Shown piece after piece: positions 12,815 through 44,185 of a stretch of DNA of 64,000 nucleotides. A program made the translations under genes and the position numbers. How positions within the stretch are numbered: the first letter of the stretch is position 1; every line of letters begins with the position of its first letter. Source of the stretch: Flavobacterium nackdongense (GTDB taxonomy: Bacteria; Bacteroidota; Bacteroidia; Flavobacteriales; Flavobacteriaceae); contig NZ_CP037933.1 in NCBI RefSeq assembly GCF_004355225.1, positions 868,001 through 932,000 on the forward strand, given 5' to 3'. The notes beneath the pieces are model-generated. The model made no database searches. It had not been told where the DNA came from and worked only from the letters and a program-made list of their open reading frames with translations.

Positions 12815-14224
12815 ATGAAAAAACTAATTGTAGCCCTTGTGCTAGTTAATGTTTTTGGCCTTATGGCACAAAACTCCAAAAAACCGAATGTCATTATCAT
12901 TTACAATGACGATTTAGGCTATCAAGATTTAGGGTGTTACGGTTCGCCAAACATCAAAACACCCCGTATTGACCAGATGGCGAAAGAAGGCGTTCGATTT
13001 ACAGACTGTTATTCGGCTTCGCCTGTTTGTTCCGCTTCGAGAGCGGCTTTGCTAACAGGTTGCTATCCGCAACGAGTTGGGGTACCAGGTGTCATTTCAG
13101 CAGGTGCCAATCAAGGATTGAGTCCAAAAAACACAACCCTAGCGGAAATTTTAAAAAGTGTGGGTTATGCGACAGCCGCTGTTGGCAAATGGCATTTAGG
13201 CGATCAGCCGCAACATTTGCCCACTAATCAGGGCTTTGATTCCTTTTTTGGGATTCCGTATAGCAACGATATGTATCCTTCAAAAAATATTCCTTACGCA
13301 GCTAATTGTCAGTTCAACGAAGGCTATGATTTAAATAAAATCAATGAGGCATTTGCCAATATGAAACCGGGTGACAAACAACCCGAGTCTGCCAAACACA
13401 AAGTGCCGTTGATGCGCAATTTAGAAACTATCGAATTTCCAGTAGATCAAACTACCATAACCAAACGATATGCGGATGAAGGCATTTCCTTCATTAAACA
13501 AAGTGTCAAAGACAAAAAACCTTTTTTCCTTTACTTAGCGAATTCGATGCCTCATATTCCGCTTTATGTTTCGCCTCAATTTAAGGGAAAAAGTAAGCGC
13601 GGACTTTATGGCGATGTAGTCGAAGAAATAGACTATAACACCGGAAGAATTCTCGATGTATTGAAAGAATTAAAAATCGATAAAAACACCATCGTTATTT
13701 TTTCATCCGACAATGGACCTTGGTTGGCAAAAGGAGCTGATGGAGGTTCAGCACTCCCGCTGTTCGAAGGTAAATTCACCAGTTTTGAAGGAGGATTGCG
13801 AGTGCCTTTTATTATAAAATGGCCTAATGAAATTAAAGCGGATGGAGTTTGTAAAAAATTAATTTCTACAATTGATATACTTCCAACATTAGCGAGTATT
13901 ACGGGTGCAAAACTGCCTGAAATGGAAATAGATGGAACATCGGTTTTGGATTTATGGAAAGGTGATCCAAGTGCAAAAAACCCACACGAGTTCTACTTTA
14001 TGATTTACACGGGGCAATCGGTTCGCTCTGGCGATTGGAAATACCATAAAAAACAAATATTTTCAGTAAACAAAGATACACAAACAGACAAATCTCCCGC
14101 TTTATACAACCTAAAAGACGATATTGGTGAAACAAAAAATTTATTAAATGAATATCCCGAAATAGCTCAAAAATTAGCCAAAGCACTTGACGAGCATTTA
14201 AGCAGGATTAATGTTAAAAAATAA
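12815..14224 (+). CDS. S1-family sulfatase (CSASR formylglycine motif)
   Basis: A 469-residue exported sulfatase (signal ends G-L-M-A-Q). Metal-binding Asp pair in IIYNDDLGYQDLG (about 31-33), formylglycine site Cys72 in CSASR, then GKWHLG, and SDNGPW in the second metal site. The motif uses Ala instead of the common Pro at the third position, which maturing enzymes accept in the general C-x-P/A-x-R form. It hydrolyses a sulfate ester from a sugar, probably exo-acting in the periplasm. It is last in the first unit and is followed by a strong terminator. Confidence 0.93.
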   Translation: MKKLIVALVLVNVFGLMAQNSKKPNVIIIYNDDLGYQDLGCYGSPNIKTPRIDQMAKEGVRFTDCYSASPVCSASRAALLTGCYPQRVGVPGVISAGANQGLSPKNTTLAEILKSVGYATAAVGKWHLGDQPQHLPTNQGFDSFFGIPYSNDMYPSKNIPYAANCQFNEGYDLNKINEAFANMKPGDKQPESAKHKVPLMRNLETIEFPVDQTTITKRYADEGISFIKQSVKDKKPFFLYLANSMPHIPLYVSPQFKGKSKRGLYGDVVEEIDYNTGRILDVLKELKIDKNTIVIFSSDNGPWLAKGADGGSALPLFEGKFTSFEGGLRVPFIIKWPNEIKADGVCKKLISTIDILPTLASITGAKLPEMEIDGTSVLDLWKGDPSAKNPHEFYFMIYTGQSVRSGDWKYHKKQIFSVNKDTQTDKSPALYNLKDDIGETKNLLNEYPEIAQKLAKALDEHLSRINVKK

Positions 14225-14921: not shown

Positions 14922-17336
14922 ATGATGAAAAAAAATACATTTCTTGCCCTTGTACTCCTATCACTTTGTTTTTCGGTGACAAGTTGGAGTCAAAATATTG
15001 TTTATCCTTGGCGTGCCACGACTGCAATACTCAAAGGAGGCGAAAGCTTTGAAGTTTGGTTTAATGCTGCCAATGGGCAAACCGTAAACTCCGTTGAACT
15101 CAAAGCAGCGTTTCAAAATGTAAGTACTTCGATTAGCAGTGTCAATGGCAATTGGGTATACGACCCGATGTCTGGCAACACCTACAATATGAAAATTACG
15201 GTTAGCGTGCCTGCCAACGCAGTTGCCGATCGATATGACCTTGTTCTGAACACCTCATCTGGACCTATTACGTCCTATGGTGGTGTCAAAATTGTAAAAG
15301 AATACAAACCCGAGTATTACGTGATGCATATGTCGGATGGCCATTTATATCAGGCTGGTTATGATACCGATGTTATTTTGCAAAGAAAATCGGCTATGGT
15401 AGACATCGCCAATATTATGGATGTTCAAGTGCTTATCGAAACGGGGGACAATATGTATAACGTACGAAATCATCCCGAAAGAGAAGAGTATTATTTTATT
15501 GGCAGTCCTTCCATCAATACCAAAGGAATGTCGAAATGTACAGCAGCCACATTTATAACACCCGGTGATCACGAAGGATTTACTGCCAATGATTTTGCCC
15601 AAGGAACACCACAACAAAATGCTGACTTCGTCAATGATTATTGGGGGTTACAGAATCACAGTTTCAAATATGGAAATGGACGATTTATGAATCTTAACAA
15701 TGCTTGGTCGGTATCGGAAACCAATCCGGGGCAACATCAATATCAAATAGATGATGCCATTTCTTGGTTGCACAATGCGGGTTCGGGCGGGAATTTCTTT
15801 CTGACAGCAGGACATTGTTACAACAAAATGCACAGTTTTATCGACACCGATACAAAGCTCAGCCTAGTTCTAGCGGGGGATAAACATCATATCTATACGT
15901 CCAATCCGTATTCCTTTACTCCCGGAAGTCCTGCTGTTGCCTATATCGCTGCATCGGGAATCAACCATTTTGCGTTCAACCTTTTTAAAGTTAATAACGC
16001 AACCGGAAGTTACTCAGCCCCAACGGGTGTCAATGGATTTGCAGATGTCTTGTTTAGCGGTGACCAAGACCTACCTGCTACTTGGGTATCGAATCTGACA
16101 CTTGCTTATTCCGCGGCCAATGATGGAAGCACAACTATTAACACTGCTACAATTGACAATAAATTTAACTTCCCGCTAACGGCAGCCAAAGTGCGTTTTG
16201 TTGTTCCCAAAGGTTTTAATTATAATGTAACCAATGGTATTGTGGAACAGGAATATGACGGAACGCAATTTCATATTGTCGATGTCTTGACCGATGTAAA
16301 TGCTGCTAGCAAAAAAGAAATCTATATTACTTCGGGCAGTCCCATCGACTTATGTCCCGATGATCCAAACAAAACGGCTCCCGGCAATTGTGGCTGCGGA
16401 GTACCAGAGGGCACTTGCACCGTTGCTGTAACCGGTCTAACGGTAAATCCAACCACCGCAAAATTGCACTTGAATGTTATCAAACAAATTGTCGCTACCA
16501 TCACTCCTGCCAATGCAACAAACAAACAGATTACTTGGAGCAGCAGTGACCCAGCTGTAGCGACTGTTAGTCCTGCAGGCTTAGTTACCGCAATAAGCGG
16601 AGGAACTGCAATTATTACGGCAACCGCCCAAGATGGAAATATCACAGCAACAACAAGCATCACGGTAATTCCAAATAATACCCTGTACCAAGCCGAAGAT
16701 GCCGAACTTAATGGTGCTCTAATTGTGACATCGCAGCCGGACTACCACGGCACCGGATTTGTAGATTACACCAATCCATCAAACGATTATATCAAATGGT
16801 CGGTCTATGTGCCTACCGATGGCAATTACAATCTGAACTTCCGATATGCTTTGGCCTCTGGCAGCAGACCATTAAACTTAAACGTTAATGGTGTTAACAA
16901 AAACTCTTTGACTTTTCCTGTAACCGGTAGTTTTGCCGTTTGGGGCAATTACATCAGTAGTCAAGCCTTAAAAGCAGGTACCAATACCATTACACTGACA
17001 GCAATCGGTTCGAGTGGAGGTAATTTTGATGAGCTTACCATTTCGAATACTCTTGGCATCAACGATTTACCCCAAGGAAATGAAAATAAAACAGTCAAAG
17101 TTTTTCCCAATCCACTAACACAATCAAGTCTTTATGTCTCTACCGATGGATTTGATAATGACACCAACGTTCGTATTACGATTACCAACACCAACGGTCA
17201 AAAAATATACGAGAAAAAACTCCATGATCCTTGTCAGACCGAGATAAATCTAGCCGAGAAATTACCGAATGCGCTCTATTTTGTTACTGTGCAATCCGAT
17301 CAAACCAAAATTGTAAAAAAATTAATTGTAAAATAG
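14922..17336 (+). CDS. T9SS-secreted metallophosphoesterase with Ig-like and CBM6 domains, paralogue 1
   Basis: An 804-residue protein: signal peptide; N-terminal beta domain (about 25-125); calcineurin-like phosphoesterase domain (about 130-380); a Cys-rich linker with CGCGVPEGTC (about 485-500); a BIG2-type Ig-like domain (to about 585); a CBM6-type carbohydrate-binding domain beginning YQAEDAE (about 590-710); and a T9SS C-terminal sorting domain. It would be secreted and bind a polysaccharide. The active site differs from the two downstream copies: SDGH and GDN are present, but GNHD has become GDHE (about 215) and GHVH has become GDKH (about 320), replacing an Asn and a His metal ligand. 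It may use another metal or be inactive. Confidence 0.85.
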   Translation: MMKKNTFLALVLLSLCFSVTSWSQNIVYPWRATTAILKGGESFEVWFNAANGQTVNSVELKAAFQNVSTSISSVNGNWVYDPMSGNTYNMKITVSVPANAVADRYDLVLNTSSGPITSYGGVKIVKEYKPEYYVMHMSDGHLYQAGYDTDVILQRKSAMVDIANIMDVQVLIETGDNMYNVRNHPEREEYYFIGSPSINTKGMSKCTAATFITPGDHEGFTANDFAQGTPQQNADFVNDYWGLQNHSFKYGNGRFMNLNNAWSVSETNPGQHQYQIDDAISWLHNAGSGGNFFLTAGHCYNKMHSFIDTDTKLSLVLAGDKHHIYTSNPYSFTPGSPAVAYIAASGINHFAFNLFKVNNATGSYSAPTGVNGFADVLFSGDQDLPATWVSNLTLAYSAANDGSTTINTATIDNKFNFPLTAAKVRFVVPKGFNYNVTNGIVEQEYDGTQFHIVDVLTDVNAASKKEIYITSGSPIDLCPDDPNKTAPGNCGCGVPEGTCTVAVTGLTVNPTTAKLHLNVIKQIVATITPANATNKQITWSSSDPAVATVSPAGLVTAISGGTAIITATAQDGNITATTSITVIPNNTLYQAEDAELNGALIVTSQPDYHGTGFVDYTNPSNDYIKWSVYVPTDGNYNLNFRYALASGSRPLNLNVNGVNKNSLTFPVTGSFAVWGNYISSQALKAGTNTITLTAIGSSGGNFDELTISNTLGINDLPQGNENKTVKVFPNPLTQSSLYVSTDGFDNDTNVRITITNTNGQKIYEKKLHDPCQTEINLAEKLPNALYFVTVQSDQTKIVKKLIVK
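17275..17335 (+). repeat. 61-bp direct repeat, copy 1 (3' end of phosphoesterase 1)
   Basis: These 61 bases, encoding the end of the T9SS domain (from S-Y-F-V-T-V-type residues through K-L-I-V-K), are identical to 19772-19832 at the end of paralogue 2. Paralogue 3 differs at several bases here. Confidence 0.85.
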
Positions 17337-17367
17337 AACTAATCACTACCAGAAATACCCAAGCCAA

Positions 17368-19833
17368 ATGAAAAAAATACTACCAATAATCATTTTCCTT
17401 TTGACCTTCTTGTTGTCAACTGTGAGCTGGTCTCAAAAAATTATTTACCCTTGGCGTTCAACCACCGCCATTGTCAAAGCAGGCGAAACTTTCGAAGTTT
17501 GGTTCAATGCCGATGCCGGTCAAACGCTAAATGAAGTCTCTCTACGAGGACCTTTCAACAATACCGATGTCACGATTACCGATACTAAAACAGATACTTG
17601 GGTCTATGATCAATGGTCAGGAAATACCTGTAATCGCAAATACACCATTAGCGTTCCAGCCAATACTCCAGCGGATCGCTACGATTTAATTTTAAAAACA
17701 TCGACAGGCGACGAAATATCACTGGCAGCGGTTAAAGTCATTAAAGAATACAAAAGCAATTATTATATTTTGCATTTCTCCGATGTACATCGTTGGCAAG
17801 GTACTTATGACACGCCAAATATCATACTACGCGAAGTTTCGACTATTGTGGATATTGCCAATATCATCGACCCTGCAATGATCATCGAAACGGGGGACAA
17901 TCATTATCAAAACACCACAAATGAAGCGAGTTCACTTGCTCGAATCGAACAATACATGAACGGATATACAGGAACATCAGGCTGGGTAAATGGGATGAAT
18001 AATTTCTTCGCACCCGTTTTTACGGTACCCGGAAACCACGATACTCCTAATAAAAATTTCGAATTAGAACCGGGTTATCCAAACCCGGGTTATGAAAAAA
18101 ATGCTGCCATAACCCAAAATAAATTTTATGGACTTCAAGCTTTTAATTTCTCTTACGGGAGTACTCGATTTATGGGTGTAAACAACTCTTGGACGCCTGA
18201 TACTGGTGGCGGTGCAGCTGGATATGTGGCCAACTACCAATGGCAATTAGATGCGGCTAATGCGTGGTTAAATAGTGCCGGTAGTGGCAAATTTAGAATT
18301 GGTTTTTTTCACGTACCACAAGAAAGTATTCCACCGGTTTATAACGCCTTTAAAAACGCAGGAAATCCGCTAGGTTTGATGTTAGCTGGACATGTTCACA
18401 GCATTACAAATAGTCCATTTACCTATGACAGCCGTTTGTGCTACACCACTTTATCCTGTAGAGACGGAAGTAAAAGTGCTCCTTTCAACTTATACAAAGT
18501 AGACGATGTAGCGGGTACTTATGAAACAGTGGGTAATGCACAGTCTGCTCATCAAGGATTGGAAACTGCAAAAAACTACAACACACCTAAATTGAAATTG
18601 ACTTATGCCAATGCCAATGACGGTACTAGTGAAACCAATGTTGCAACGATAGTCAATAAATTTACTTTTCCAATTGCAGGAGCAAGAGTACGTTTTGTCG
18701 TGCCAAAAGGGGGACCGTATTATGTAACAAACGCAACTATCAAACAAGAATTTGACGGAACCAATTTTCACATCATTGATGCTACCTATAATTTGGCTGC
18801 AACTAGTACAACTGTTGTGAACTTGTTCAAAGGAATTCAGGTTGACCAATGCCCCAATGACCCTGACAAAATGGAACCTGGCATCTGCGGTTGTGGGATT
18901 CCAGAGGGCACTTGTCCAATTCCAGTTACAGGTGTCTTAATTTCTCCATCGAATGTAAAAATGAATACGAATACTGATAGACAATTATTCGCCACAGTCC
19001 AACCTTCCAATGCAACCAATAAATCGATAAATTGGACTAGTAATGATACCGGAATCGCCACAGTTGATACTAATGGTTTAGTTACAGCTAATGCAACAGG
19101 TACTGCCACCATTACGGCAACAACAGTTGATGGTACTAAAATAGCTAATAGCAACATTACAGTACTTACCAATAATAATAATTATCAAGCAGAAGATGCC
19201 GAATTTGTTGGTCCCGTGATCGCTACTAACCAACTCGGATACAACGGCACTGGCTTCTTGGACTATACTAACGCCACAAACGATTTTATCAAATGGAACG
19301 TTTATGTACCAACCACGGGCAATTATACTTTAAATTTCCGTTATGCGGCCTCCGCAAATAGACCCTTAAAACTAACCATCAACGGAGTTGACGTCAGTGC
19401 CTCTTTTGCGTTTCCATCAACAGGTAGTTTTGCCATTTGGGGAAATATTTCCACTAGTCAATTATTAACTGCAGGAAACAACACCATAACCTTGACTGCC
19501 ATTGGTTCTAGTGGAGGGAATTTTGATGAACTTACTATCGCTAGTACCCTCGGTGTAAATGATAAAACATTCGAGAATGAGACCAAAACCGTTAGGGTAT
19601 ATCCCAACCCGGTAGCCAATGGAATTTTTACTGTTGCAACAGACGGACTCGACGATGACACTAACGTTCGTATTATTGTAACCAATAGTATCGGTCAGAA
19701 AATTCATGAAAAAAAAATAAACGATCCGTGCCATACCGATATCAATCTCGATGGCAAACTAAGCGAATCCATCTATTTTGTTACTGTGCAATCCGATCAA
19801 ACCAAAATTGTAAAAAAATTAATTGTAAAATAA
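17368..19833 (+). CDS. T9SS-secreted metallophosphoesterase with Ig-like and CBM6 domains, paralogue 2
   Basis: An 821-residue protein with the same domain order as the preceding gene: signal peptide, beta domain, calcineurin-like phosphoesterase, CGCG linker, BIG2-like domain, CBM6-type domain, T9SS sorting domain. The full set of metal-ligand motifs is present: FSDVH (about 137-141), ETGDNH, PGNHD and AGHVH, with an extra FFH before the last. It should be a bimetal phosphomonoesterase or phosphodiesterase acting outside the cell on a carbohydrate-bound substrate. The start is 31 bp after paralogue 1. In the catalytic domain it is much closer to paralogue 3 than to 1. The natural phosphoester is unknown. 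Confidence 0.87.
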   Translation: MKKILPIIIFLLTFLLSTVSWSQKIIYPWRSTTAIVKAGETFEVWFNADAGQTLNEVSLRGPFNNTDVTITDTKTDTWVYDQWSGNTCNRKYTISVPANTPADRYDLILKTSTGDEISLAAVKVIKEYKSNYYILHFSDVHRWQGTYDTPNIILREVSTIVDIANIIDPAMIIETGDNHYQNTTNEASSLARIEQYMNGYTGTSGWVNGMNNFFAPVFTVPGNHDTPNKNFELEPGYPNPGYEKNAAITQNKFYGLQAFNFSYGSTRFMGVNNSWTPDTGGGAAGYVANYQWQLDAANAWLNSAGSGKFRIGFFHVPQESIPPVYNAFKNAGNPLGLMLAGHVHSITNSPFTYDSRLCYTTLSCRDGSKSAPFNLYKVDDVAGTYETVGNAQSAHQGLETAKNYNTPKLKLTYANANDGTSETNVATIVNKFTFPIAGARVRFVVPKGGPYYVTNATIKQEFDGTNFHIIDATYNLAATSTTVVNLFKGIQVDQCPNDPDKMEPGICGCGIPEGTCPIPVTGVLISPSNVKMNTNTDRQLFATVQPSNATNKSINWTSNDTGIATVDTNGLVTANATGTATITATTVDGTKIANSNITVLTNNNNYQAEDAEFVGPVIATNQLGYNGTGFLDYTNATNDFIKWNVYVPTTGNYTLNFRYAASANRPLKLTINGVDVSASFAFPSTGSFAIWGNISTSQLLTAGNNTITLTAIGSSGGNFDELTIASTLGVNDKTFENETKTVRVYPNPVANGIFTVATDGLDDDTNVRIIVTNSIGQKIHEKKINDPCHTDINLDGKLSESIYFVTVQSDQTKIVKKLIVK
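19772..19832 (+). repeat. 61-bp direct repeat, copy 2 (3' end of phosphoesterase 2)
   Basis: Identical to 17275-17335. The flanking bases differ at both ends, so the identity is sharply limited to this stretch. Confidence 0.85.
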
Positions 19834-19849
19834 GTAAGATTTAAAATAA

Positions 19850-22321
19850 ATGAAAATGAAAAAAACTGTACAAATTTCGATTTTTATCTTGACGCTCTTA
19901 TTTTCTATAAGTAGTTGGTCTCAAAAAATTGTATATCCTTGGCGCGCCACGACTGCCATTGTAAAAAGCGGCGAAAATTTTGAAGTTTGGTTCAATGCTG
20001 CCGATGGACAAACTATCAATTCCGTTGAATTGAGAGGCCCTTTCAACACGGTTACTGCAACGATTACGAACACAGCTACAGATACTTGGGTTTATGATAA
20101 ATGGTCCGGAAATACCTGTAATCGAAAATTATCTGTAAATGTTCCCGCCAACACCCCTAGCGACCGTTATGACTTGATTTTAAAAACATCTACTGGTGAC
20201 GAAATATCACTAGCTGCGGTTAAAGTCCTCAAAGAATTCAAAAACAACTTTTATGTGCTGCATTTTTCAGATGCGCATCGTTGGCAAGGCAGCTATGATA
20301 CGCCAAACATCATACTGCGTGAAATTTCAACTATCATCGATATTGCCAATATTATTGACCCAGAAATGATTATCGAAACAGGCGACAATCACTACCAAAA
20401 CACTGCGAATGAAGCTAGCTCAATGGATCGTATCAATCAATATATGAATGGATTTATGAATGGAACGGATTACGTAAATGGTATGAATAATGCATTCGCA
20501 CCAGTATTTACTGCTCCTGGAAATCACGATACACCACAGAAAAATTATGAATTAGAACCAGGCTATCCAACCCCAGGTTATGAAAAAATTCCATCTTTAT
20601 TTTACAATAAATTTTATGGCCTTCAAGCCCATAATTTTGCTTACGGGGATGTCCGCTTTATAGGTGTTAACAACTCTTGGTTTCCAGACGATGGCCGAGG
20701 AACACCTAATTTCTCCCACCAAACAGACGAAGCGGTCAGTTGGCTCAACACCGTTGGAAAAGGCACTATGCGAATTGGCTATTGCCACGTCAATACTGGG
20801 CAACCTTCGCGTGAATTTAACAATCCGCTGAAAGCAGCAGGAGCTCCACTGAATTTATTATTGGTAGGTCACGTACACAGCATCACGTACAGTCCGTATG
20901 TGCTTGACGACAAAAAGATTGAATACTCTGCCACTACGGTTAGAGATGGTTTAAAAAGAGTACCTTTCAATTTATACAAAATAGATGCTAGTGCTGGTAC
21001 TTATGAAACGATTTCAAATGAACAAGCGTATCAAGAGGGTCTAGAAACTGCAAAAAGCTACAACACTGCAAAACTAAAATTGACGTATTCCGCTTTGAAT
21101 GATGGGGCTACTGGAAACAATACGGCAACCATTGTCAATAAATTCAGCTTTCCAATTACGGGAGCTAGAGTACGTTTTGTAGTACCAAAAGGCAGCCCAT
21201 ACTATGTCAGAAACGCCGTGATCAAACAAGAATTTGACGGAACCAATTTTCATATTGTTGATGCCACTTATAACTTAGAGCCGAACAGCACCACAATAGT
21301 AAGTATTCACGCTGGAATTCAGGAAGATTTATGCCCGCTTGACCCCAACAAAATGGATCCAGGTCTATGTGGCTGCGGTGTAGCCGAAGGTACTTGTCCG
21401 GTGCTAGTAACTGATATTCTTTTTCAACCTACTGTAATCCGTTTGAATATCGATACAAGTCGCCTCTTAGTGCCTACTATCGTTCCTGCGAATGCCACCA
21501 ATAAAGCCGTAATTTGGGAAAGTAGTAATCCAAGCGCCATAAGTGTAAATGCTTTTGGAAAAATTACGGCTTTAAGTGAAGGCAGCGCTATCATTACCGG
21601 AACTACTGTAGACGGCGGTAAAAAAGTAACTATCAATGTCAGTACTGTTATGGATACGGTAAACTATCAAGCAGAAGATGCCGAATATGTTGGGCCACTT
21701 GAAGTCACCAATCAACCGGGCTATAAAGGGAACGGTTTTTTAGATTATACCAACGCCTCTAATGATTATATCAAATGGACGGTCAATGTTCCTGCTGATG
21801 GAAACTACAATTTAGGTTTTCGCTATGCCATTTTATCGAATAATCGCCCTTTAAGATTGACTATCAATGATGAAATACGAAATTCATCCACTCCTTTTAC
21901 GGCGACAGGTTCTTGGTCAAATTGGAGAGTATATACCACAACTCAGGCATTGGTTGCAGGAAACAATACCATTATACTCACCGCAACAGGAGCTAGTGGT
22001 GGAAATTTCGACGAGTTATCAGTAACAGGTACACTTGGGGTTCATAATTTCGGCAAAGGACAATCAAACAAATCGGTTCGAGTTTCACCTAATCCATTAA
22101 CCAGTGGGATTCTTACTGTAGCCACCGATGGTTTTGATGATGATACCAACATTCGCATTTACATCACGACTGCCAATGGACAAAAAATTTATGAAAATAA
22201 ACTAAATGATCCTTGCCATACCGATATCAATCTAGCGGGCAAATTAAGCAATTCGATCTATTTCGTTACTGTAGAATCCGATCAATCCAAAGTGGTAAAA
22301 AAATTAATAGTCCAACAATAA
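19850..22321 (+). CDS. T9SS-secreted metallophosphoesterase with Ig-like and CBM6 domains, paralogue 3
   Basis: An 823-residue protein with the same architecture as the two genes before it, 16 bp downstream of paralogue 2. Active-site motifs FSDAH, ETGDNH, PGNHD, GYCH and VGHVH are intact. The linker (CGCGVAEGTC), the BIG2-like domain, the CBM6-type YQAEDAE domain and the T9SS tail are all present. The middle of the phosphoesterase domain, which forms the substrate-facing loops, differs from paralogue 2, suggesting related but distinct substrates. Sequence similarity indicates tandem duplication of one ancestral gene. Confidence 0.87.
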   Translation: MKMKKTVQISIFILTLLFSISSWSQKIVYPWRATTAIVKSGENFEVWFNAADGQTINSVELRGPFNTVTATITNTATDTWVYDKWSGNTCNRKLSVNVPANTPSDRYDLILKTSTGDEISLAAVKVLKEFKNNFYVLHFSDAHRWQGSYDTPNIILREISTIIDIANIIDPEMIIETGDNHYQNTANEASSMDRINQYMNGFMNGTDYVNGMNNAFAPVFTAPGNHDTPQKNYELEPGYPTPGYEKIPSLFYNKFYGLQAHNFAYGDVRFIGVNNSWFPDDGRGTPNFSHQTDEAVSWLNTVGKGTMRIGYCHVNTGQPSREFNNPLKAAGAPLNLLLVGHVHSITYSPYVLDDKKIEYSATTVRDGLKRVPFNLYKIDASAGTYETISNEQAYQEGLETAKSYNTAKLKLTYSALNDGATGNNTATIVNKFSFPITGARVRFVVPKGSPYYVRNAVIKQEFDGTNFHIVDATYNLEPNSTTIVSIHAGIQEDLCPLDPNKMDPGLCGCGVAEGTCPVLVTDILFQPTVIRLNIDTSRLLVPTIVPANATNKAVIWESSNPSAISVNAFGKITALSEGSAIITGTTVDGGKKVTINVSTVMDTVNYQAEDAEYVGPLEVTNQPGYKGNGFLDYTNASNDYIKWTVNVPADGNYNLGFRYAILSNNRPLRLTINDEIRNSSTPFTATGSWSNWRVYTTTQALVAGNNTIILTATGASGGNFDELSVTGTLGVHNFGKGQSNKSVRVSPNPLTSGILTVATDGFDDDTNIRIYITTANGQKIYENKLNDPCHTDINLAGKLSNSIYFVTVESDQSKVVKKLIVQQ

Positions 22322-22382: not shown

Positions 22383-23495
22383 ATGAGTAATGCAATAATC
22401 GATGACAAACGCATCGTAATGACCTTAGACGCTGGAGGAACTAATTTTGTATTTTCCGCCATTCAAGGCAACAAACAAATCGTAGAATCCATAAGACTCT
22501 ACCCCAATTCAGACCATTTAGAAAAATGTCTTGAAACAGTTATTTCAGGTTTTGAGATTGTAAAAAAAGAATTAAAAAGTGAACCTGTAGCCATCAGTTT
22601 TGCTTTCCCAGGTCCAGCCGATTACCCCAAAGGAATCATCGGTGATTTACCCAATTTACCGGCATTTCGTGGTGGAGTGGCTTTGGGTCCAATGTTAGAA
22701 AATCATTTCAACATCCCAGTTTATATCAATAATGATGGTAATTTATTTGCCTACGGCGAAGCGCTATTTGGATTTATTCCTGAAATAAATAAACGGTTAG
22801 AAGAAACCAATAGCCCCAAAAGATTCCATAACATCATAGGTATTACGCTTGGAACGGGATTCGGTGTCGGATTAGTATGCAACAAGCAATTAATTACAGG
22901 CGATAATTCAAACGGTGGCGAAGGTTGGCTCCTGCGGGATATCTTAAGTCCAGACTGCCACGTCGAAGAACATTTAAGCCGTGAGGGAATCAGGCGAAGT
23001 TATGCAGCGAAATCAAATACTGCCGTGGAAAACGTTGGAATGCCTTTTGAAATTTACAAAATTGCCAAAGGAATCGAAACCGGAAATCAACAAGCCGCTA
23101 TCGAAACATTTAATGATTTCGGAACCGTTTTAGGCGAAGCATTGGCCAACCTAATCACCCTTCTGGACGGGATTGTTGTTCTCGGAGGAGGCGTTTCTGA
23201 AGCTTACGACCTTTTTGCCCCAGCAATGTTCGAACAATTAGAATCAAAATTTAGATTGCATAATGGCGACCCACTAAACCGTTTGGTGCCTCGTGTATTC
23301 AACCTAGAAGATCCAGTGGGTATGAAAAGATTGCTTGATGGTAACCAAATAGATTTAGCCATTCCTGGCACAGACAAAACCATCAGCTATGATCCTTTTC
23401 TGCGAACTGGAGTGCGAGTGACCAAAAATGACACTTGCCAAATAATTTCTTTAGGTGCTTACGCATTTGCACTCAATAAATTGGACTCCAATTAA
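22383..23495 (+). CDS. ROK-family sugar kinase-like protein
   Basis: A 370-residue cytoplasmic protein. The N-terminal phosphate loop MTLDAGGTN (13-21), the acidic AFPGPADY region, YINNDGN with the catalytic Asp, and GITLGTGFGVG place it in the ROK/hexokinase fold. The CxCGxxGCxE zinc motif of many ROK kinases is absent; the equivalent stretch reads GGEGWLLRD, so it is a divergent subgroup. It presumably phosphorylates a monosaccharide released by the locus. It is one of few cytoplasmic catabolic enzymes here. Substrate cannot be predicted. Confidence 0.82.
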   Translation: MSNAIIDDKRIVMTLDAGGTNFVFSAIQGNKQIVESIRLYPNSDHLEKCLETVISGFEIVKKELKSEPVAISFAFPGPADYPKGIIGDLPNLPAFRGGVALGPMLENHFNIPVYINNDGNLFAYGEALFGFIPEINKRLEETNSPKRFHNIIGITLGTGFGVGLVCNKQLITGDNSNGGEGWLLRDILSPDCHVEEHLSREGIRRSYAAKSNTAVENVGMPFEIYKIAKGIETGNQQAAIETFNDFGTVLGEALANLITLLDGIVVLGGGVSEAYDLFAPAMFEQLESKFRLHNGDPLNRLVPRVFNLEDPVGMKRLLDGNQIDLAIPGTDKTISYDPFLRTGVRVTKNDTCQIISLGAYAFALNKLDSN

Positions 23496-23589: not shown

Positions 23590-25053
23590 ATGAATACTAA
23601 TTTATCCTTCCGAAAAGCCGTTTTTACAATAGCCGTGCTACTTTCGATGTTTCAGCTGCAAGCCAAGGTGCGCCTGCCATCTATTCTGGCCGACAATATG
23701 GTTTTGCAACAAAAAACAGAAGCCAAATTATGGGGCTGGGCCAATGCCAATGCTAAAGTTGAAGTAAAAACTTCTTGGAATAAAAAAACCTATAAAACCA
23801 CTGCTGATGCCAACGGAAATTGGTTGCTCAAAATCAATACTCCGGCTGCTGGTGGACCTTTCCAAATAAGCATTTCAGATGGCGAAGTCCTCACATTAAA
23901 AAACATCCTCATTGGCGAAGTGTGGTTTTGCTCTGGCCAATCGAATATGGAAATGCCCGTGAAAGGTTTTCCACGCCAACCCACAAAAGGCGGAAATTCG
24001 GTCATTGCAAAAGCCAATCCTAAAGTGCCGATTAGAATGTTTTTGGCTGACTCGAAAGAGGGGAAATTCATCAAACAATTCAGCAAAAAACCACAAACCG
24101 ATTGCCAAGGTCAATGGTTAGACAACAGCTCGGAGAACGTTGCCAATGCTAGTGCCACTGCTTACTTTTTTGCCCAATACGTGCAAGAAGTTTTGGATGT
24201 GCCCGTTGGCATTATTGTCTCGTCTTTGGGCGGTTCTATGGTCGAATCCTGGATGAGTCGGGAAGCTATTTCTGCTTTCAAAGAAGTCGATTTGTCTGTT
24301 TTAGATAACGACACCGAAATCAAAAAACCGAACAGCACAGCCTGTGTGAACTTCAATGCCAAAATTAACCCATTTACTAATTTTACCATCAAAGGTTTTT
24401 TGTGGTATCAAGGCGAAAGCAATAAAAACAATGCCGATTTATATGCCAAACTAATGCCTGCCTTTGTCAAGGATTTACGTTCGAGATGGGACATCGGTGA
24501 GTTTCCGTTTTATTATGTACAAATCGCGCCCTACAATTACGATGGTGCCGACAAAACTTCGGCGGCTCGTTTGCGCGAAGTGCAAACTCAACATATCACC
24601 GACATACCCAATTCCGGAATGATAACTACCTTAGATATTGGTAGCCCTCAATTTATTCATCCTGTCAATAAAGAAACGGTTGGAGAACGTCTCGCCTTAT
24701 GGGCATTGGGAGCGACCTACGGCAAAAAAGGTTTTGGCTATGCCCCTCCAATTTTCAAATCAATGGAAATCAAGGAGGCTAAAATCTATATCGACTTTAA
24801 AAATGCCGACCAAGGAATCAGTCCGATGTGGACCCCGCTCAAAGGATTTGAAATCGCTGGCGAAGATAAAATTTTCTATCCTGCCAATGCCGAAATCGAA
24901 ACCTCCACTACCCGACTTGCCGTTTCGAGCGAAAAAGTAGCCAAACCGGTGGCCGTTCGCTATGCTTTCAAAAATTATGCTGAAGCGAGTATTTTTGGGA
25001 TTACGGGAATTCCGGTAGCCCCTTTCAGAACCGATGATTGGCCATTACAATAG
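23590..25053 (+). CDS. Sialate O-acetylesterase-like SGNH esterase
   Basis: A 487-residue exported protein of the family annotated as sialate O-acetylesterase. Visible are LPSILADNMVLQQ at the mature N-terminus, the nucleophile block CSGQSNMEMPV, the block WYQGESN and the His block FIHPVNKETVGERLALWAL. In polysaccharide loci these enzymes generally remove O-acetyl groups from sugars rather than from sialic acid. The Asp often seen two residues before the His (DIHP) is Phe here, a variant I cannot interpret further. The 94-bp gap before it contains a palindrome. It implies that the target glycan is acetylated as well as sulfated. Confidence 0.87.
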   Translation: MNTNLSFRKAVFTIAVLLSMFQLQAKVRLPSILADNMVLQQKTEAKLWGWANANAKVEVKTSWNKKTYKTTADANGNWLLKINTPAAGGPFQISISDGEVLTLKNILIGEVWFCSGQSNMEMPVKGFPRQPTKGGNSVIAKANPKVPIRMFLADSKEGKFIKQFSKKPQTDCQGQWLDNSSENVANASATAYFFAQYVQEVLDVPVGIIVSSLGGSMVESWMSREAISAFKEVDLSVLDNDTEIKKPNSTACVNFNAKINPFTNFTIKGFLWYQGESNKNNADLYAKLMPAFVKDLRSRWDIGEFPFYYVQIAPYNYDGADKTSAARLREVQTQHITDIPNSGMITTLDIGSPQFIHPVNKETVGERLALWALGATYGKKGFGYAPPIFKSMEIKEAKIYIDFKNADQGISPMWTPLKGFEIAGEDKIFYPANAEIETSTTRLAVSSEKVAKPVAVRYAFKNYAEASIFGITGIPVAPFRTDDWPLQ

Positions 25054-25108: not shown

Positions 25109-28100
25109 ATGAAAAATTTTATAATGACAAAAAAACGAATTTGCCTACTCCTTTTAACCACTTCATTTGGTGTTTTTGGACAACAATTGGAGTATAAAAA
25201 TGATTTCTCGAATGCTGCAACTACCCTGAAAACTGTTGAAAGAGGAAGCTGTACCGTCGTTGATGGTGTTTTGAAATCTACAGATGCCTATGCTAAGTTC
25301 GGAAATCCGGAATGGAAGAATTATACTGTCAAATTCAAAGCCAGAGCACCAAAAAGTGCCGAACAAGTACAAATTTGGGCGGGTTTCAGAGCTTTTAACA
25401 GAAATGACAGATACGTTGTAGGACTACGAGGTGGATTGCAAAACACGCTTTACCTGAGCCGTATGGGTTATATGGGCACCGATGAGTTTCTTGGTTTAAG
25501 AGTCTTAAATTTCAAACCCGTTCCCGGCACTTGGTACGACATCAAAATAGAAGTGGTGGGCAATCGCATCCGTATCTTCTTGGACAATGAAGCACTACCT
25601 TACCTTGATATTGTGGACAAAAACGCCAATTTAGCTCCAGCCGGCGAAGTGACCCTCGGCGGAAGTTGGATCGAAACGGAGTTTGATGATTTGTCCATCA
25701 CCGCATTGGATGAAAATTATCTAAAAAACCAAGCTGTAGTCGAATGGAGCAAAAAAATTGAACCGAACGACAAGGAAAACAGAAGAATTGCCGATAGAGC
25801 CAATTACAAACCTATCGTAGTAGACGCTTTGAAAGGCAGTCGTTCTGAAATAGTTTTGGATGGCAATTGGTTGTTTATGCCCGAAAATGAACTTGCTGAT
25901 GCAAAAAATGGTTCAAATGAAAATGCGCAGGATACCAACTGGCACACGATGTCGGTTCCTAACTTTTGGAATCCATCACGCGTTTGGTTGCACGGTGAAT
26001 CCTTCGAAGGTTTCCCGAAAGGCGTTTCGGATGTATATTTTCAAAAAGAAACCGATCGCTGCAAAAATTACACTTTCGACTATACGAAAACCAAGGTAGC
26101 TTGGTACCGTCAATATGTGGAACTGCCAACAACTATCCAGTCAAAACACATCACTTTGAATTTCGATGCGGTTTCAAAAATTGCTGAAGTATACATCAAC
26201 GGAAAATTGGCGGGATCACACGTGGGAATGTTTGGTGATTTCACAATAGATGCAACCCCATTCTTACGAGCAGGGAAAAATCTTATTGCCGTTCGTGTGG
26301 TTCGTGATTTTATAACCAATATCGAAGATGGCGATAAAATTGTAGATGTTGCAGTAACGGTACCCGTAACCAACAATATGCTGAAAGATATTGCCCACGG
26401 GTTTTTCAAAGATGATCCGGCTGGTATTTGGCAGCCCGTAAAAATGGTCATCACTGACAATTTGAAGATTGAAGATGTTTACATCAAACCTAGTTTACAA
26501 GGTGCTACCTTTGAAGTCACCTTAAAAAACTACGCTTCAAAATCGGTTAAATACGATTTGACTACCGAAATTTTAGACAAAGAAACTACGAGTCAATTGT
26601 ACACAGGAACTTCTTTGACAAAAGGAGAATTAAAAGCGGGTGAAGAGCGAAAAGTTACCTTTACCATCGCAAACCTGAAACCCCGATTGTGGACGCCAAA
26701 TCATCCGAATTTGTATCATTTTAATTTCAAATTAGTTTCCGGAACCACAGAAATCGACAGCAAAACAATCACTTCGGGTTTCAGAACATTTGAAGTAAAA
26801 AATGGTTTCTTCTTCCTGAACGGCAACCAATACTGGCTTCGTGGTGCCAATCACACCTCTTATGCATTGGGCATCAACGACCGAAATTTAGCAGATACTT
26901 TTTATCAGTTGATGAAAACTGCCAATATGGATGTGACCCGCACACATACTGTGCCTTACAACGAACTTTGGATGGATGCCTCGGATGAAAACGGCATCGG
27001 AATTAGTTATGAAGGAACTTGGCCTTGGTTAATGATCAAAAATTCGATGCCGGAACCAAAGCTTTTGCAATTATGGTCGGATGAATTTATTGGTCTTTTG
27101 AAAAAATACAGAAACCATCCTTCTATCTTGATTTGGACCGTGAATAACGAAATGAAATTCTACGATAATCCGGGAGATCTTGAACCAACGAAGGCCAAAA
27201 TGAAAGTCATCTCAGATGTGGTCAAACGAATGCGAGAAATTGACCCGACAAGGCCTATTAGTTTCGATTCCAATTATGTGCGCAATGAGCAAAAATTTGG
27301 CAAAGAATATTTTAAGACTATTGACGACGGCGATATCGACGACGACCATAAATACATCAACTGGTATGATTATACCGTTTTTAAATTTTTCAAGGGTGAA
27401 TTCCAGAAAAAGGCCAATCCCGGTCGACCTTTAATCAGCCAAGAATTATCAACCGGTTATCCTAATGCAGAAACAGGTCACGCTACTCGTTTTTACAACC
27501 TAGTGCATCAAAATCCGCAAAGTTTAATCGGATATCAGTCGTATGAATTTGGTAATCCGCAAGCGTTTTTGAATGTAAACTCATTTATAACCGGAGAATT
27601 AGCCGAGGCGCTTCGTCGTACAGGCGATAAAATGGCAGGTGTTTTACATTTTGCACTGCTTACTTGGTTCCGAAATGCCTACGATTATAAAAACATCGAA
27701 CCCTATCCAACGTATTTTGCGATGCAAAGAGCAATGTCTCCAGTATTGGTAAGTGCTGAATTATGGGGACGAAATTTATACGGTGGCGAAAAAATACCCG
27801 TGAAATTTGCTGTAGTAAACGACAGAGAAAACGGAACAGCCGTAAAAGAATCGATGGTTCAATGGGAATTACAGGCAGAAAATGGGGAGAAATTAGTGGG
27901 TGGCAAAGAAAAAGTGCCCGCAGTGCAACATTCTGCTCGTCAATGGGTCACGCCTGAAATCATTATTCCTGAGAATTTAACAGCACCAAAATCAGTTGCC
28001 AAGCTTAAACTAAAACTAATCGAAAGCGGCATTACCATTGCGGAAAACGAATACAAACTGAATGTCGCTACCAAACAATGGAGTGCTTCGGTCATCAACC

Positions 28101-28744
28101 CAGCCAAGAAAATTGCGGTAGTCGATTTTAATGGAATGAACAAATCTTTGGATTTCTTGAAAGTGAAATATACTGCCTATCCAACAGTCGCTGCGGCGCT
28201 TCAGGCAAAGGCAGATGTGTATCTGTTTTCAGGACTTGAGGTTTCAAAAAACTGCAGCGAGCAAGACATTCAGGCTATTCGAACAAGCATTAATAAAGGA
28301 GCTAAAGCATTGGTATTGAAATCAGCAGAGGCAGCTCAAAAAATATATCCTGAATACATCACGGGAGTTCTTGTACCTACCGAAGGGGATATCGTCAATA
28401 TGGAAATGCCAGAATCCCCTGTTTTTGATGGAATCGGTTTATTTGACTTACGCTATTTCAACAACAACAAAACAGAAGTTCCTACGGTTTGCAACGCTGC
28501 TTTAAAAATCAACCGAAGCAAAGAAGTGGTTGAATTGGCCAATCAAACTAAAATACACGGATATATCAATGGCGAAATGAAAGACAGATCCGAATATGTT
28601 AAAACCATAAAAGGCTTTTCAATTTTGAGAATCAACAAAGGTGGAGCTGCCATCATTTCGACTATGAGCCACGAAAAAGCAACTACCGACCCAATTGCTG
28701 GAAGGCTTTTAACGAATATGATTAATGATTTATTGATGCATTAA
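25109..28744 (+). CDS. Large multidomain GH2-family protein
   Basis: A 1211-residue exported protein. After the signal peptide come a jelly-roll domain resembling LamG/DUF1080 (about 25-210), the GH2 sugar-binding domain (about 250-450), an Ig-like domain, and the TIM barrel starting at NGFFFLNGNQYWLRGANH. The putative acid/base Glu is in TVNNEMKF (near 680) and the nucleophile Glu in LISQELSTG (near 779). A C-terminal region (about 985-1211) resembles the glutamine-amidotransferase-like domain seen in some beta-galactosidases. GH2 includes galactosidases, glucuronidases, mannosidases and others, so specificity is open. The extra N- and C-terminal domains make it longer than usual GH2 enzymes. 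Confidence 0.85.
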   Translation: MKNFIMTKKRICLLLLTTSFGVFGQQLEYKNDFSNAATTLKTVERGSCTVVDGVLKSTDAYAKFGNPEWKNYTVKFKARAPKSAEQVQIWAGFRAFNRNDRYVVGLRGGLQNTLYLSRMGYMGTDEFLGLRVLNFKPVPGTWYDIKIEVVGNRIRIFLDNEALPYLDIVDKNANLAPAGEVTLGGSWIETEFDDLSITALDENYLKNQAVVEWSKKIEPNDKENRRIADRANYKPIVVDALKGSRSEIVLDGNWLFMPENELADAKNGSNENAQDTNWHTMSVPNFWNPSRVWLHGESFEGFPKGVSDVYFQKETDRCKNYTFDYTKTKVAWYRQYVELPTTIQSKHITLNFDAVSKIAEVYINGKLAGSHVGMFGDFTIDATPFLRAGKNLIAVRVVRDFITNIEDGDKIVDVAVTVPVTNNMLKDIAHGFFKDDPAGIWQPVKMVITDNLKIEDVYIKPSLQGATFEVTLKNYASKSVKYDLTTEILDKETTSQLYTGTSLTKGELKAGEERKVTFTIANLKPRLWTPNHPNLYHFNFKLVSGTTEIDSKTITSGFRTFEVKNGFFFLNGNQYWLRGANHTSYALGINDRNLADTFYQLMKTANMDVTRTHTVPYNELWMDASDENGIGISYEGTWPWLMIKNSMPEPKLLQLWSDEFIGLLKKYRNHPSILIWTVNNEMKFYDNPGDLEPTKAKMKVISDVVKRMREIDPTRPISFDSNYVRNEQKFGKEYFKTIDDGDIDDDHKYINWYDYTVFKFFKGEFQKKANPGRPLISQELSTGYPNAETGHATRFYNLVHQNPQSLIGYQSYEFGNPQAFLNVNSFITGELAEALRRTGDKMAGVLHFALLTWFRNAYDYKNIEPYPTYFAMQRAMSPVLVSAELWGRNLYGGEKIPVKFAVVNDRENGTAVKESMVQWELQAENGEKLVGGKEKVPAVQHSARQWVTPEIIIPENLTAPKSVAKLKLKLIESGITIAENEYKLNVATKQWSASVINPAKKIAVVDFNGMNKSLDFLKVKYTAYPTVAAALQAKADVYLFSGLEVSKNCSEQDIQAIRTSINKGAKALVLKSAEAAQKIYPEYITGVLVPTEGDIVNMEMPESPVFDGIGLFDLRYFNNNKTEVPTVCNAALKINRSKEVVELANQTKIHGYINGEMKDRSEYVKTIKGFSILRINKGGAAIISTMSHEKATTDPIAGRLLTNMINDLLMH

Positions 28745-28757: not shown

Positions 28758-29930
28758 ATGAGCTGTTCCAATTCAATTGTAAAAACCTTTTTCTGTCTAT
28801 TCTTATGGTGCTGCTTTTCTTTTACTAGTTCAGCTCAAGAAGAATACAAAGACCCAAAAAACAAAGACCCCAAAGAAGTTTTTGCTGGAGGTTCCTTTTA
28901 TGAAGTACAAAAGTATCCGCAAACTAAGCCCAACAAAACACCCAAAAACATCATTTTAATGATTGGAGATGGTATGGGACTTGCTCAAGTGTACAGTGGT
29001 CTGACGGCAAACGGTGGCCATTTGAACTTAGAAAATTTCAAAAACATTGGGTTCTCAAAAACCAGTTCATCGGATCAATATGTGACCGATTCTGCGGCTG
29101 GCGCAACAGCTTTATCTACAGGGGTAAAAACCTATAACGGAGCGATTGGTGTAGATCCCAACAAAAAACCAGTCGTACACATTCTGGAAAGAGCGGAAAA
29201 AAAAGGGCTTACCACAGGTTTGGTTTCCACCTCTGCCATCACCCACGCTACGCCAGCCTCTTTTATCGCCCACGTCGATTCTCGAAAAAGTTTCGATGAT
29301 ATTGCCTTGGATTTTATCAGCAACGATATCGATGTATTTATTGGTGGCGGAAAAAAATATTTCGAAAAACGCAAAGACGGTAAAAACCTTAGCCAAGAAC
29401 TCAAGGACAAAGGCTATCAGGTTCTTTACAACATCGAAGATATCCAAAATGTAAAATCGGGAAAACTTGCCGGTTTGACCGCCGAAGATCATAACAAACC
29501 GATGCCTGACAGAGGCGAGATGCTTGTTCCAGCCACGCAAACTGCCCTGAAACTTTTGTCCCAAAACAAGAAAGGTTTCTTTCTGATGGTCGAGGGTTCG
29601 CAAATAGATTTTGCTGCGCATAAAAACGATACTCCGGGAGTAGTTCTCGAAATGTTAGATTTTGATAAAGCGATTGGAGCTGCTTTAGCCTTTGCCGCCT
29701 CTAATAAAGAAACTTTAATCATCGTTACCGCCGACCACGAAACGGGTGGAATGACGCTATTGGACGGCGATTACAAAACCGGAAAAGTAGTAGCAAAATA
29801 TACTAGTTTAGGCCACTCAGGAATTGCAGTTCCTATTTTCGCTTTTGGTCCTGGATCCGAGGAGTTTACTGGCTTTATGGAGAATACTGAAATTGCCGAA
29901 AAAATGATGCAATTGCTAAAATTGAAATAA
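28758..29930 (+). CDS. Alkaline phosphatase (PhoA-type fold)
   Basis: A 390-residue exported protein. The alkaline phosphatase marks are all present: metal-binding MIGDGMG (Asp71), nucleophile VTDSAAGATALSTG (Ser112), THATPAS, and ADHETGG near the C-terminus. It should release phosphate from monoesters in the periplasm or cell envelope. A phosphatase inside a sulfatase-rich locus is unusual, and it is in the same unit as the three secreted metallophosphoesterases. It may finish the removal of phosphate begun by them. Being of the same superfamily as sulfatases, a sulfate or phosphonate substrate is a possible alternative, but the Ser motif favours phosphate. Confidence 0.9.
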   Translation: MSCSNSIVKTFFCLFLWCCFSFTSSAQEEYKDPKNKDPKEVFAGGSFYEVQKYPQTKPNKTPKNIILMIGDGMGLAQVYSGLTANGGHLNLENFKNIGFSKTSSSDQYVTDSAAGATALSTGVKTYNGAIGVDPNKKPVVHILERAEKKGLTTGLVSTSAITHATPASFIAHVDSRKSFDDIALDFISNDIDVFIGGGKKYFEKRKDGKNLSQELKDKGYQVLYNIEDIQNVKSGKLAGLTAEDHNKPMPDRGEMLVPATQTALKLLSQNKKGFFLMVEGSQIDFAAHKNDTPGVVLEMLDFDKAIGAALAFAASNKETLIIVTADHETGGMTLLDGDYKTGKVVAKYTSLGHSGIAVPIFAFGPGSEEFTGFMENTEIAEKMMQLLKLK

Positions 29931-31746: not shown

Positions 31747-31778
31747 AAAATCAATACCCAATCAAAAAAAAGACTTTA

Positions 31779-35458: not shown

Positions 35459-35481
35459 TCATACCCTAATTAGTGCGTTTT

Positions 35482-37095: not shown

Positions 37096-37122
37096 TATAT
37101 ATTCAAAAAAATAGATTGAGCT

Positions 37123-38466: not shown

Positions 38467-38474
38467 CCACCACC

Positions 38475-40064: not shown

Positions 40065-40203
40065 TTACATCCATAAAATACTATTTCTGGTTTGGATTGA
40101 TGGCAATGCGATCGTTGACAGCTTTTGCTTAAAAAACCTACTGTGCCATTTTCTAAAAATTCCACTGTGCTTCGGTAATCATTCAGTAGAGTAAGCTATC
40201 AAA

Positions 40204-40548
40204 TGCTCTGCTGTTCCCAGAATATGCCATACAACAAAAGCTCGATTGGGTTGTAATGAATTCCTAGTTGCTCTTCAAATAGAGACAATTTCAAAATCTG
40301 CACAGCAAATTCCTTTTTCAGAGTCTCAATTCTGGAAAGGTGTTCCTGATGGTTCAGCAGTGGCCATAATTGATTTTTTAGAGTTGATAAAAAAGAGCAA
40401 ACCACAGAAAATTATTGTACCACCCTGGGCTCGGGCGCAAAAGCATTTTGACATAGAACTTCCGCAATCGGACTTGATAAAAAGTTTCGATTATAGGCCT
40501 AAAAATGGCAATCTGATACTAAAATCGTTATTATTTTCGATCCGTTAA
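40204..40548 (+). pseudogene. Frameshifted remnant of unknown protein
   Basis: Two adjoining frames look protein-like in sequence (see the surrounding gap) and overlap at 40246-40268, where a frameshift would join them. The C-terminal 100 residues have an even composition and a natural end at 40548. No start codon or signal is evident. The family was not identified; an ordinary chance ORF remains possible. Confidence 0.3.
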
Positions 40549-40590
40549 TTTTATTAATTAATTATTAATGTAAAATTATGTGTACGCCAT

Positions 40591-40598
40591 TATTTTTG
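40591..40598 (+). promoter_or_regulatory. Possible -7 box of the fourth unit
   Basis: TATTTTTG matches TAnnTTTG. No TTG occurs 19-21 bases upstream, so support is weak. Confidence 0.25.
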
Positions 40599-44175: not shown

Positions 44176-44185
44176 TGCACCTACG

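Follow-up and report, generated by a model that had tools for sequence, protein, structure and literature searches.

We analysed a stretch of 64,000 nucleotides of the Flavobacterium nackdongense genome (contig NZ_CP037933.1, positions 868,001 to 932,000 of the forward strand), hereafter the window, containing three adjacent genes for secreted metallophosphoesterases (MPEs). A sequence-only reading had proposed such a triplet with a common domain order at 14922-22321, and we find it to be real, i.e. three intact open reading frames (ORFs) of the + strand encoding 804 (gene 1), 821 (gene 2) and 823 (gene 3) amino acids, arranged head to tail with gaps of 31 bp (genes 1-2) and 16 bp (genes 2-3). 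All three share the order of a signal-peptide-like start (read directly from the sequence), the MPE core, a linker with four Cys residues (C..CGC..C, read by eye), a Big_2 domain, a CBM35/CBM6-type carbohydrate-binding module (CBM) and a tail for the type IX secretion system (T9SS). The Pfam scan returned Big_2, CBM_35 and CBM_6, and Por_Secre_tail matches in each protein, and the T9SS tail, likewise claimed from the sequence alone, is a type A C-terminal sorting domain scoring above cut-off in all three (PF18962, TIGR04183). In the predicted model of gene 3 one beta-rich part precedes the MPE core and another follows it. A promoter scan (35 sites vs 24.5, sd 5.9, in shuffles) and a terminator scan (5 vs 7.1) were not used. 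Genes 2 and 3 carry canonical metal ligands, and gene 1 carries Asp at two of the ligand positions (D/D type):

14922..17336, + strand: gene 1, D/D-type secreted MPE reading GDHE where the canonical motif is GNH and GDKH where it is GHxH (Pfam and motif reading), with Big_2 at 16425-16652, CBM35 at 16680-17000 and T9SS tail at 17100-17330 (Pfam)
15567..15569, + strand: gene 1 motif III codon, Asp (residue 216, GDHE), being Asn in the canonical type
15879..15881, + strand: gene 1 motif V codon, Asp (residue 320, GDKH), being His in the canonical type
17368..19833, + strand: gene 2, secreted MPE with the canonical ligands SDVH, GDNHY, GNHD, FHV and GHVH, with Big_2 at 18922-19140, CBM35 at 19183-19497 and T9SS tail at 19597-19827 (Pfam)
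19850..22321, + strand: gene 3, secreted MPE with the canonical ligands SDAH, GDNHY, GNHD, CHV and GHVH, with Big_2 at 21407-21637, CBM35/CBM6 at 21662-22021 and T9SS tail at 22085-22312 (Pfam)

PF00149 (Metallophos) matches gene 2 (E 7.4e-9) and gene 3 (E 2.5e-7), the Pfam scan giving no PF00149 match for gene 1. Compared with gene 3 over the MPE domain, gene 2 shows 69% and gene 1 43% identity, so that gene 1 is homologous over the domain and represents a divergent type rather than a stranger. The canonical ligands D, H, D, N, H, H, H, H are all kept in genes 2 and 3; in gene 1 two of them are exchanged and the six other ligand positions kept. At least 391 proteins match the MPE part of gene 3 with E up to 1e-5 (8000 candidates scored) and at least 302 that of gene 1 at E 1e-10, the best 120 of the 391 and the best 120 of the 302 being listed; P0139, a homologue of gene 1, comes from Flavobacterium sp. 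TSSA_36. We surveyed the active site in 260 distinct MPE domains, drawn from these best-listed homologues and from the genomic loci fetched. In 260/260 domains motif I keeps its Asp and its His, motif II its Asp, motifs III and IV their His and motif V its last His. The motif III Asn and the first motif V His are both kept (N/H) in 148/260 domains, including genes 2 and 3, and both replaced by Asp (D/D; GNH to GDH together with GHxH to GDxH) in 112/260, including gene 1 and a further MPE of the same genome (C1:803743), a single exchange at motif III or V occurring in 0/260 domains. All six other ligand or catalytic positions are kept in 112/112 D/D domains. When a FastTree tree is built from the alignment with these two columns removed, the D/D domains sit in one clade of 128 (support 89), which includes 16 N/H domains, of which 14 form a clade of their own (support 99) and two are single metagenomic sequences. 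The minimum of four state changes implies that, on that tree, joint switching of the two positions happened repeatedly; of the three reversions to N/H within the D/D clade, two depend on single metagenomic sequences.

We rejected gene 1 being a decayed copy, as 112 of the 260 domains share both exchanges with the other six positions kept. A recent local triplication was also rejected as the whole story, given 69% vs 43% identity and both ligand types recurring together elsewhere: of 13 genomes having a D/D domain of full length, 10 hold both types (23 genomes have a full-length domain of any type; the pool is the loci fetched, not every match in those genomes). As judged from the alignment, gene 1 is a member of a large sister type with a conserved exchanged metal site, and we take the coupled exchange as evidence for a change of the metal site in an active enzyme; the two positions bind the second metal in the related enzyme GpdQ. 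It is very unlikely that the D/D type is no longer a phosphoesterase, catalysing instead another hydrolysis, e.g. of a sulfate ester, or only binding. The joint exchange of both ligands in so many domains and the sulfatase-rich setting would suit this, but the six positions kept throughout are expected of an active dimetal hydrolase, and we know of no MPE-fold sulfatase.

The predicted model of the gene 3 MPE part shows a dimetal MPE fold, genes 1 and 2 being assigned by homology. The family profile had no match among PDB chain sequences at E up to 0.1. In a Foldseek search with the gene 3 model purple acid phosphatases lead, 5'-nucleotidase is at rank 7 and Mre11 at rank 15, with all TM values under 0.45, the first 50 rows also containing some glycoside hydrolases that are clearly unrelated. 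The rows of a VIA fold search are tied within approximately 2 Z units, and telling a diesterase from a monoesterase by fold search led nowhere. Calcineurin-like MPEs (PF00149; Rv0805, GpdQ, Lmo2642) belong to the same superfamily, their canonical ligands being present in genes 2 and 3. The window proteins differ from them by the extra beta-rich parts flanking the MPE core (gene 3 model) and by being secreted with CBM and T9SS tail, gene 1 additionally by the two Asp residues that replace Asn and His. Plant purple acid phosphatases likewise have a beta-rich N-terminal domain before the MPE core (model residues 1-411 aligned), and GDxxY, their mark, is common to both, being present in 246/260 MPE domains. 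However, their motif I is DxG, whereas DxH is found in 260/260 MPE domains, and the identity is 11%.

The binding module had been described as CBM6-type from the sequence alone; a carbohydrate module is indeed present in all three proteins, but the best score is CBM_35 in genes 1 and 2 and CBM_6 in gene 3. For the gene 3 module, to which the binding-site comparison is confined, the nearest solved sequences are 2vzp (E 8.8e-23) and 2w47 (E 1e-21). In the consulted excerpt of PMC9843283, 2vzq (listed together with 2vzp) is Chi-CBM35 and 2w47 is Rhe-CBM35, both among the uronic-acid-specific modules. The alignment of the gene 3 module keeps the Trp (WSNW), the Arg (NRPL) and the late Asn (GGNFDEL) of the site list in that excerpt. 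Glucuronic acid is a component of diatom glucuronomannan, according to an excerpt of PMC9723552, a composition that fits but does not prove the uronate binding proposed for the CBM35-like module.

The MPE genes are followed by ROK, SASA esterase, GH2 (GH, glycoside hydrolase family), alkaline phosphatase, two smaller genes, GH92, GH43 and six sulfatases, giving the following features of the window:

12815..14224, + strand: sulfatase upstream of gene 1, with a gap of 697 bp (Pfam)
22383..23495, + strand: ROK-family protein, next after gene 3 (Pfam)
23590..25053, + strand: SASA-type carbohydrate esterase (Pfam)
25109..28744, + strand: GH2 family enzyme (Pfam)
28758..29930, + strand: PhoA-type alkaline phosphatase, in the same strand and gene run as the MPEs (PF00245)
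31743..34028, + strand: GH92 alpha-mannosidase family (Pfam)
35473..48619, + strand: run with six sulfatases around a GH99-like gene, the sulfatase at 42286 with T9SS tail (Pfam)
44147..46810, + strand: GH99-like protein with T9SS tail, 887 aa (phmmer)
Starts at 12815, 35473, 37123, 38475, 40853, 42286 and 47024, + strand: sulfatases (Pfam)
59591-61981, - strand: eighth sulfatase (Pfam)

The alkaline phosphatase named in the sequence-only reading is real (PF00245 E 3.9e-87, nearest solved chain 2iuc), and its seven sulfatases are all found on the + strand, the count having missed the eighth on the - strand. Also absent from the earlier inventory were the GH99-like ORF and a SusC/SusD pair upstream of the window. 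The GH99-like assignment comes from phmmer (E 4.3e-43 to the GH99-like protein of a second cluster in the same genome), the Pfam scan giving T9SS only and no GH99 match; the protein reads FDEYDEGT where the GH99 domain of the metagenomic MPE homologue P0095 reads FNEWGEGT. The SusC-like TonB receptor and SusD lie approximately 6-11 kb upstream of the window (L013), so that the polysaccharide utilisation locus (PUL) is larger than the window, and SusC/SusD, GH92 and sulfatases of a sulfated alpha-mannan PUL are all present at the locus. Sulfated alpha-mannan PULs are further marked by a GH195 endo-mannanase and by S1_51/S1_11 sulfatases; on this point the analysis gives the GH99-like label of the protein at 44147-46810. 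GH29, GH95, GH39, GH31, GH2 and GH43 genes in the window, fucosidases among them, point to a more complex glycan with more than mannose. The locus also contains a 335-aa protein without Pfam or NCBIfam match (6904-7911). Downstream of the sulfatase run the window has, at 50537-55997, a single ORF joining an AcrB-type RND pump with an OEP efflux domain, followed by an HlyD-type gene.

Scanning with two peptide patterns, we found 36 loci in 24 public genomes belonging to Flavobacterium, Paludibacter, other Bacteroidales, Polaribacter filamentus, Planctomycetota/Phycisphaerae, Verrucomicrobia, Opitutaceae and Pontiellaceae, with single bins of Fibrobacteria, Myxococcota and Deltaproteobacteria, nearly all loci being metagenome-assembled. 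The window's own genome is the only one with the MPE family among 397 of its taxonomic family (at most four candidates per genome were scored, and one of the host's own five members was missed). This patchy spread over several phyla suggests horizontal transfer of the MPE family.

The homologues are mostly not scattered without glycan-degradation neighbours, supporting the link to a sulfated glycan: with flanks of at most 10 kb a side and labels by phmmer (score >=50, reference proteins nearly all from the host genome), 24/36 loci have at least one GH92, GH99-like, sulfatase, DUF5010 or GH130 gene, and one further locus (L018) a glycyl radical enzyme only. The loci holding each family are 17 for sulfatase, 14 for GH99-like, 9 for DUF5010 (PF16402), 8 for glycyl radical enzyme, 7 for GH92, 6 for GH130, 5 for SSF, 3 for EEP and 2, besides that of the window, for alkaline phosphatase; for sulfatase and DUF5010 the count covers just these 36 loci, with no background rate. 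MPEs lie in loci with SusC- or SusD-like genes, GH92, GH99-like genes and sulfatases in G400, G403, G412, G413, G419 and G404 (P. filamentus). A Pfam scan of neighbours within 6 kb, covering 98 of 144 candidates, nearest first, gave sulfatase 10, DUF5010 9, CBM_35_2 9, radical SAM 4, SSF 3, EEP 3, GH99 3 and GH130 2 among the commonest 25 of 96 families, and three PF00149 proteins outside this family's profile.

The association was quantified in 25 MPE-bearing genomes, which are related to each other and were chosen for having MPEs, and the expected numbers are upper limits derived from genome size. Within 10 kb of an MPE lie 17 of 59 GH99-like genes vs at most 0.48 expected (36-fold) and 8 of 14 glycyl radical enzyme genes vs 0.11 expected (71-fold). 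For GH92 the figures are 8 vs 0.87 (9.2-fold, best 150 of 177 matches) and for GH43 as control 4 vs 0.71 (5.6-fold, best 150 of 271 matches). The test left out 4/63 GH99 rows (second pieces of one protein) and 1/48 MPE rows (same contig as another), the fifth MPE of the host genome being added from a separate search. In two related metagenomic homologues, P0089 and P0095, MPE and GH99 domain are even found in one chain, probably by one fusion event; PF16317 occurs in only these two among 236 best-listed homologues. The end of P0089 looks, by impression, like sequencing adapter, and P0095 shows the same fusion without it.

These data bear on phosphorus scavenging, according to which glycan-anchored surface phosphatases or nucleotidases harvest organic phosphorus in algal mucilage, the PUL only supplying the anchor. 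This is an unlikely explanation, favoured by the alkaline phosphatase in the same gene run and by a fold similar to 5'-nucleotidase and purple acid phosphatases. The marked clustering with genes for GH99-like proteins and the glycyl radical enzyme and the GH99 fusion in two homologues argue against it; no phosphate-uptake family is found in the commonest 25 of 96 Pfam families (98 neighbours), and a single positive genome out of 397 (at most four candidates scored in each) is unlike a general phosphorus gene.

The host genome (4.2 Mb, one contig, C1) contains a further MPE cluster 79-88 kb upstream of gene 1:

C1:794864: MPE of 465 aa, second cluster
C1:803743: MPE of 1122 aa with Big_2 and CBM35, D/D type, second cluster
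C1:816192-819580 (L010:13192-16577): glycyl radical enzyme and activase, approximately 50 kb upstream of the window

The cluster has GH92, GH99-like, two DUF5010, an alpha-1,3-glucanase-domain protein, an SSF symporter, GH130-like and a sulfatase as neighbours and also holds the glycyl radical enzyme with its activase. One DUF5010 (PF16402) protein (L009:11312-13768) carries the same Big_2-CBM35-T9SS cassette as the MPEs. The glycyl radical enzyme has PFL-like and Gly_radical domains and a GC-x-E stretch as in the aligned dehydratase. Its identity as a glycerol dehydratase or choline lyase is not supported, since the five best NCBIfam models score 251-332 bits with cut-offs of 678-1100, none of which is reached. 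In the alignment to 1r8w, judged by eye, a His and an Asp, which we take to be His281 and Asp447 of 1r8w, have no counterpart. Enzymes 76-100% identical to that of the host occur in 11 of the 25 MPE-bearing genomes, the host included (76-93% in the ten others), lying within 10 kb of an MPE in eight, at 12 kb in the host and on another contig in two; three weaker matches (40-46%) in two genomes lie apart from MPEs. SSF symporter and GH130-like genes are often found beside these relatives. The gene company suggests the glycyl radical enzyme acting on a product of the same glycan, and the tight MPE link offers a handle on its substrate. At C1:819765-825066 (L010/L011) lie two Gfo/Idh/MocA-type oxidoreductase-like genes, a small gene and a gene for a 3-keto-disaccharide hydrolase domain protein; the second Gfo/Idh/MocA-type gene is confirmed by Pfam and the first by similarity, with relatives near MPEs in G400 and G403.

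Other genomes have an EEP-family gene directly preceding the MPE, the window MPE proteins themselves not being EEP. This is the case in G413, where 15 bases separate EEP and MPE and the MPE and symporter genes overlap by 4, and in G409 and G419, whose EEP proteins are 81 and 82% identical to the first. A 410-aa protein without Pfam match precedes the EEP-MPE pair in three genomes (L085:14383-15612 in G413; L031, L048). The mannosyl-6-phosphatase 4c1r, to which the EEP proteins of these genomes are distantly related, resembles the MPE loci in that phosphate is taken off where alpha-mannan is degraded, and differs from the window proteins in having the EEP and not the MPE fold; it comes from the Bacteroides yeast-mannan system, which to our knowledge has no sulfatases.

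EEP proteins include phospholipid and inositol-phosphate enzymes, and GH92 and GH99 act on N-glycans too. Both observations would accord with a rather unlikely alternative in which the substrate is a phosphorylated glycoconjugate, e.g. phosphoglycoproteins or glycosyl inositol phospholipids with sulfated mannose chains, instead of a polysaccharide. In line with this, the consulted part of PMC6298971 considers that a sulfated mannan substrate might be a glycoprotein. SusC/SusD, the GH99-like proteins and the CBM35-like module, however, point to a polymer, and no lipase or ceramidase is found in the commonest 25 of 96 neighbour families.

Taken together, we propose, with confidence evenly balanced between this and all other explanations, that the MPEs are glycan-docked phosphoesterases, most likely phosphodiesterases, acting on a phosphorylated, sulfated alpha-mannan-type glycan. 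The model builds on the observed architecture, ligand patterns and genomic association and on the predicted fold of the gene 3 domain. The CBM35-like module would hold the MPEs on a uronate-bearing, sulfated, alpha-mannan-type polysaccharide, where, outside the cell, they would take off phosphodiester-linked substituents or bridges. Such substituents would block the sulfatases, the GH99-like endo-mannanase and the GH92 exo-mannosidase of the locus. In the proposed order of steps, the alkaline phosphatase, or in three other genomes perhaps the EEP-family enzyme, would then strip the remaining phosphate monoesters, and the canonical (genes 2 and 3) and D/D (gene 1) sites may divide the labour between two different phosphoester bonds. 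The simplest account of the MPE fold, the docking on glycan, the fusion to GH99 and the nearby phosphomonoesterases is that phosphodiester-linked groups are removed from a sulfated alpha-mannan-type glycan, a diester rather than a monoester being the putative bond. The sequence-only reading had suggested action on a glycan phosphoester; our data support the tie to a sulfated glycan and narrow it towards alpha-mannan, while the phosphoester of this glycan is still something we infer, because the fold matches phosphomono-, phosphodi- and nucleotide esterases alike, including phosphatases and 5'-nucleotidase.

Besides this ambiguity of the fold, several observations weigh against the model. None of the core neighbour families is held by 11/36 loci; 7 of these 11 are stretches of 3.9-8.2 kb, and the real negatives are L019, L039, L040 and L045 (11.5-21.3 kb). 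The GH92 enrichment is modest beside the GH43 control, so that general clustering explains much of the GH92 signal, but not that of GH99-like or glycyl radical enzyme genes. There are 10 close EEP relatives in 9 genomes (63-100% identity), and just three of them adjoin an MPE; the seven others (63-74%) lie 18 kb from an MPE in one case (G404) and on other contigs in six. The best EEP match of the host genome has only 36% identity and lies approximately 2 Mb away, and for the G413 EEP protein the best solved matches are the uncharacterised 3g6s and 3mpr, with 4c1r third. The His ascribed to uronate-specific CBM35 in the excerpt of PMC9843283 is not kept in gene 3. Among 97 genomes of the genus of P. 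filamentus only P. filamentus itself has the MPE family, which is thus no regular part of such loci, and we rejected the idea that it belongs to the standard set of Polaribacter sulfated-mannan loci. Moreover, according to the consulted part of PMC13063451, the one characterised sulfated alpha-1,3-mannan, from a diatom, provides C, O, S and H alone, and the Polaribacter concerned has 18 further PUL enzymes that are inactive on it. The substrate must therefore be another or a more decorated glycan.

The sulfated alpha-mannan and glucuronomannan PULs of marine Polaribacter and Formosa likewise have GH92s, several sulfatases, a distant GH99 relative and SusC/SusD, as described in the consulted parts of PMC13063451, PMC6298971 and PMC9723552, but differ in that a word search of the main texts of these three papers, as far as consulted, found no phosphoesterase. 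Among the best literature matches per query, the terms 'metallophosphoesterase', 'glycyl radical enzyme' and 'calcineurin-like phosphoesterase' had 0 occurrences, the combination of a phosphoesterase or glycyl radical enzyme with mannan/sulfatase loci was not found, and the consulted parts of the literature on mannan loci gave no description of a phosphorylated sulfated mannan. As far as these searches go, the MPE family is new in its setting and in the D/D site, its superfamily being known.

A further-reaching possibility, which we consider fairly improbable, is that a natural sulfated alpha-mannan-type glycan bears a phosphodiester-linked small organic group and that the loci encode its full removal and use. 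Both MPE types would cut the diester, the alkaline phosphatase or EEP enzyme would strip the phosphate, the sodium symporter would import the freed alcohol and the glycyl radical enzyme would eliminate from or dehydrate it. If true, the D/D site would be a new catalytic variant of the metallophosphoesterase superfamily.

The paired ligand exchange, which hides most of the D/D proteins from Pfam's model, is a natural experiment on how the dimetal site sets the substrate in a ubiquitous enzyme superfamily. Gene clusters now serve to read how algal sulfated mannans are broken down, and the consulted parts of the literature do not mention phosphorylation of these glycans. Glycan-docked MPEs tied to such clusters suggest that phosphoester substituents exist and provide enzymes to find them; some sulfated glycans in nature would then bear phosphate-linked groups which microbes need to strip off.

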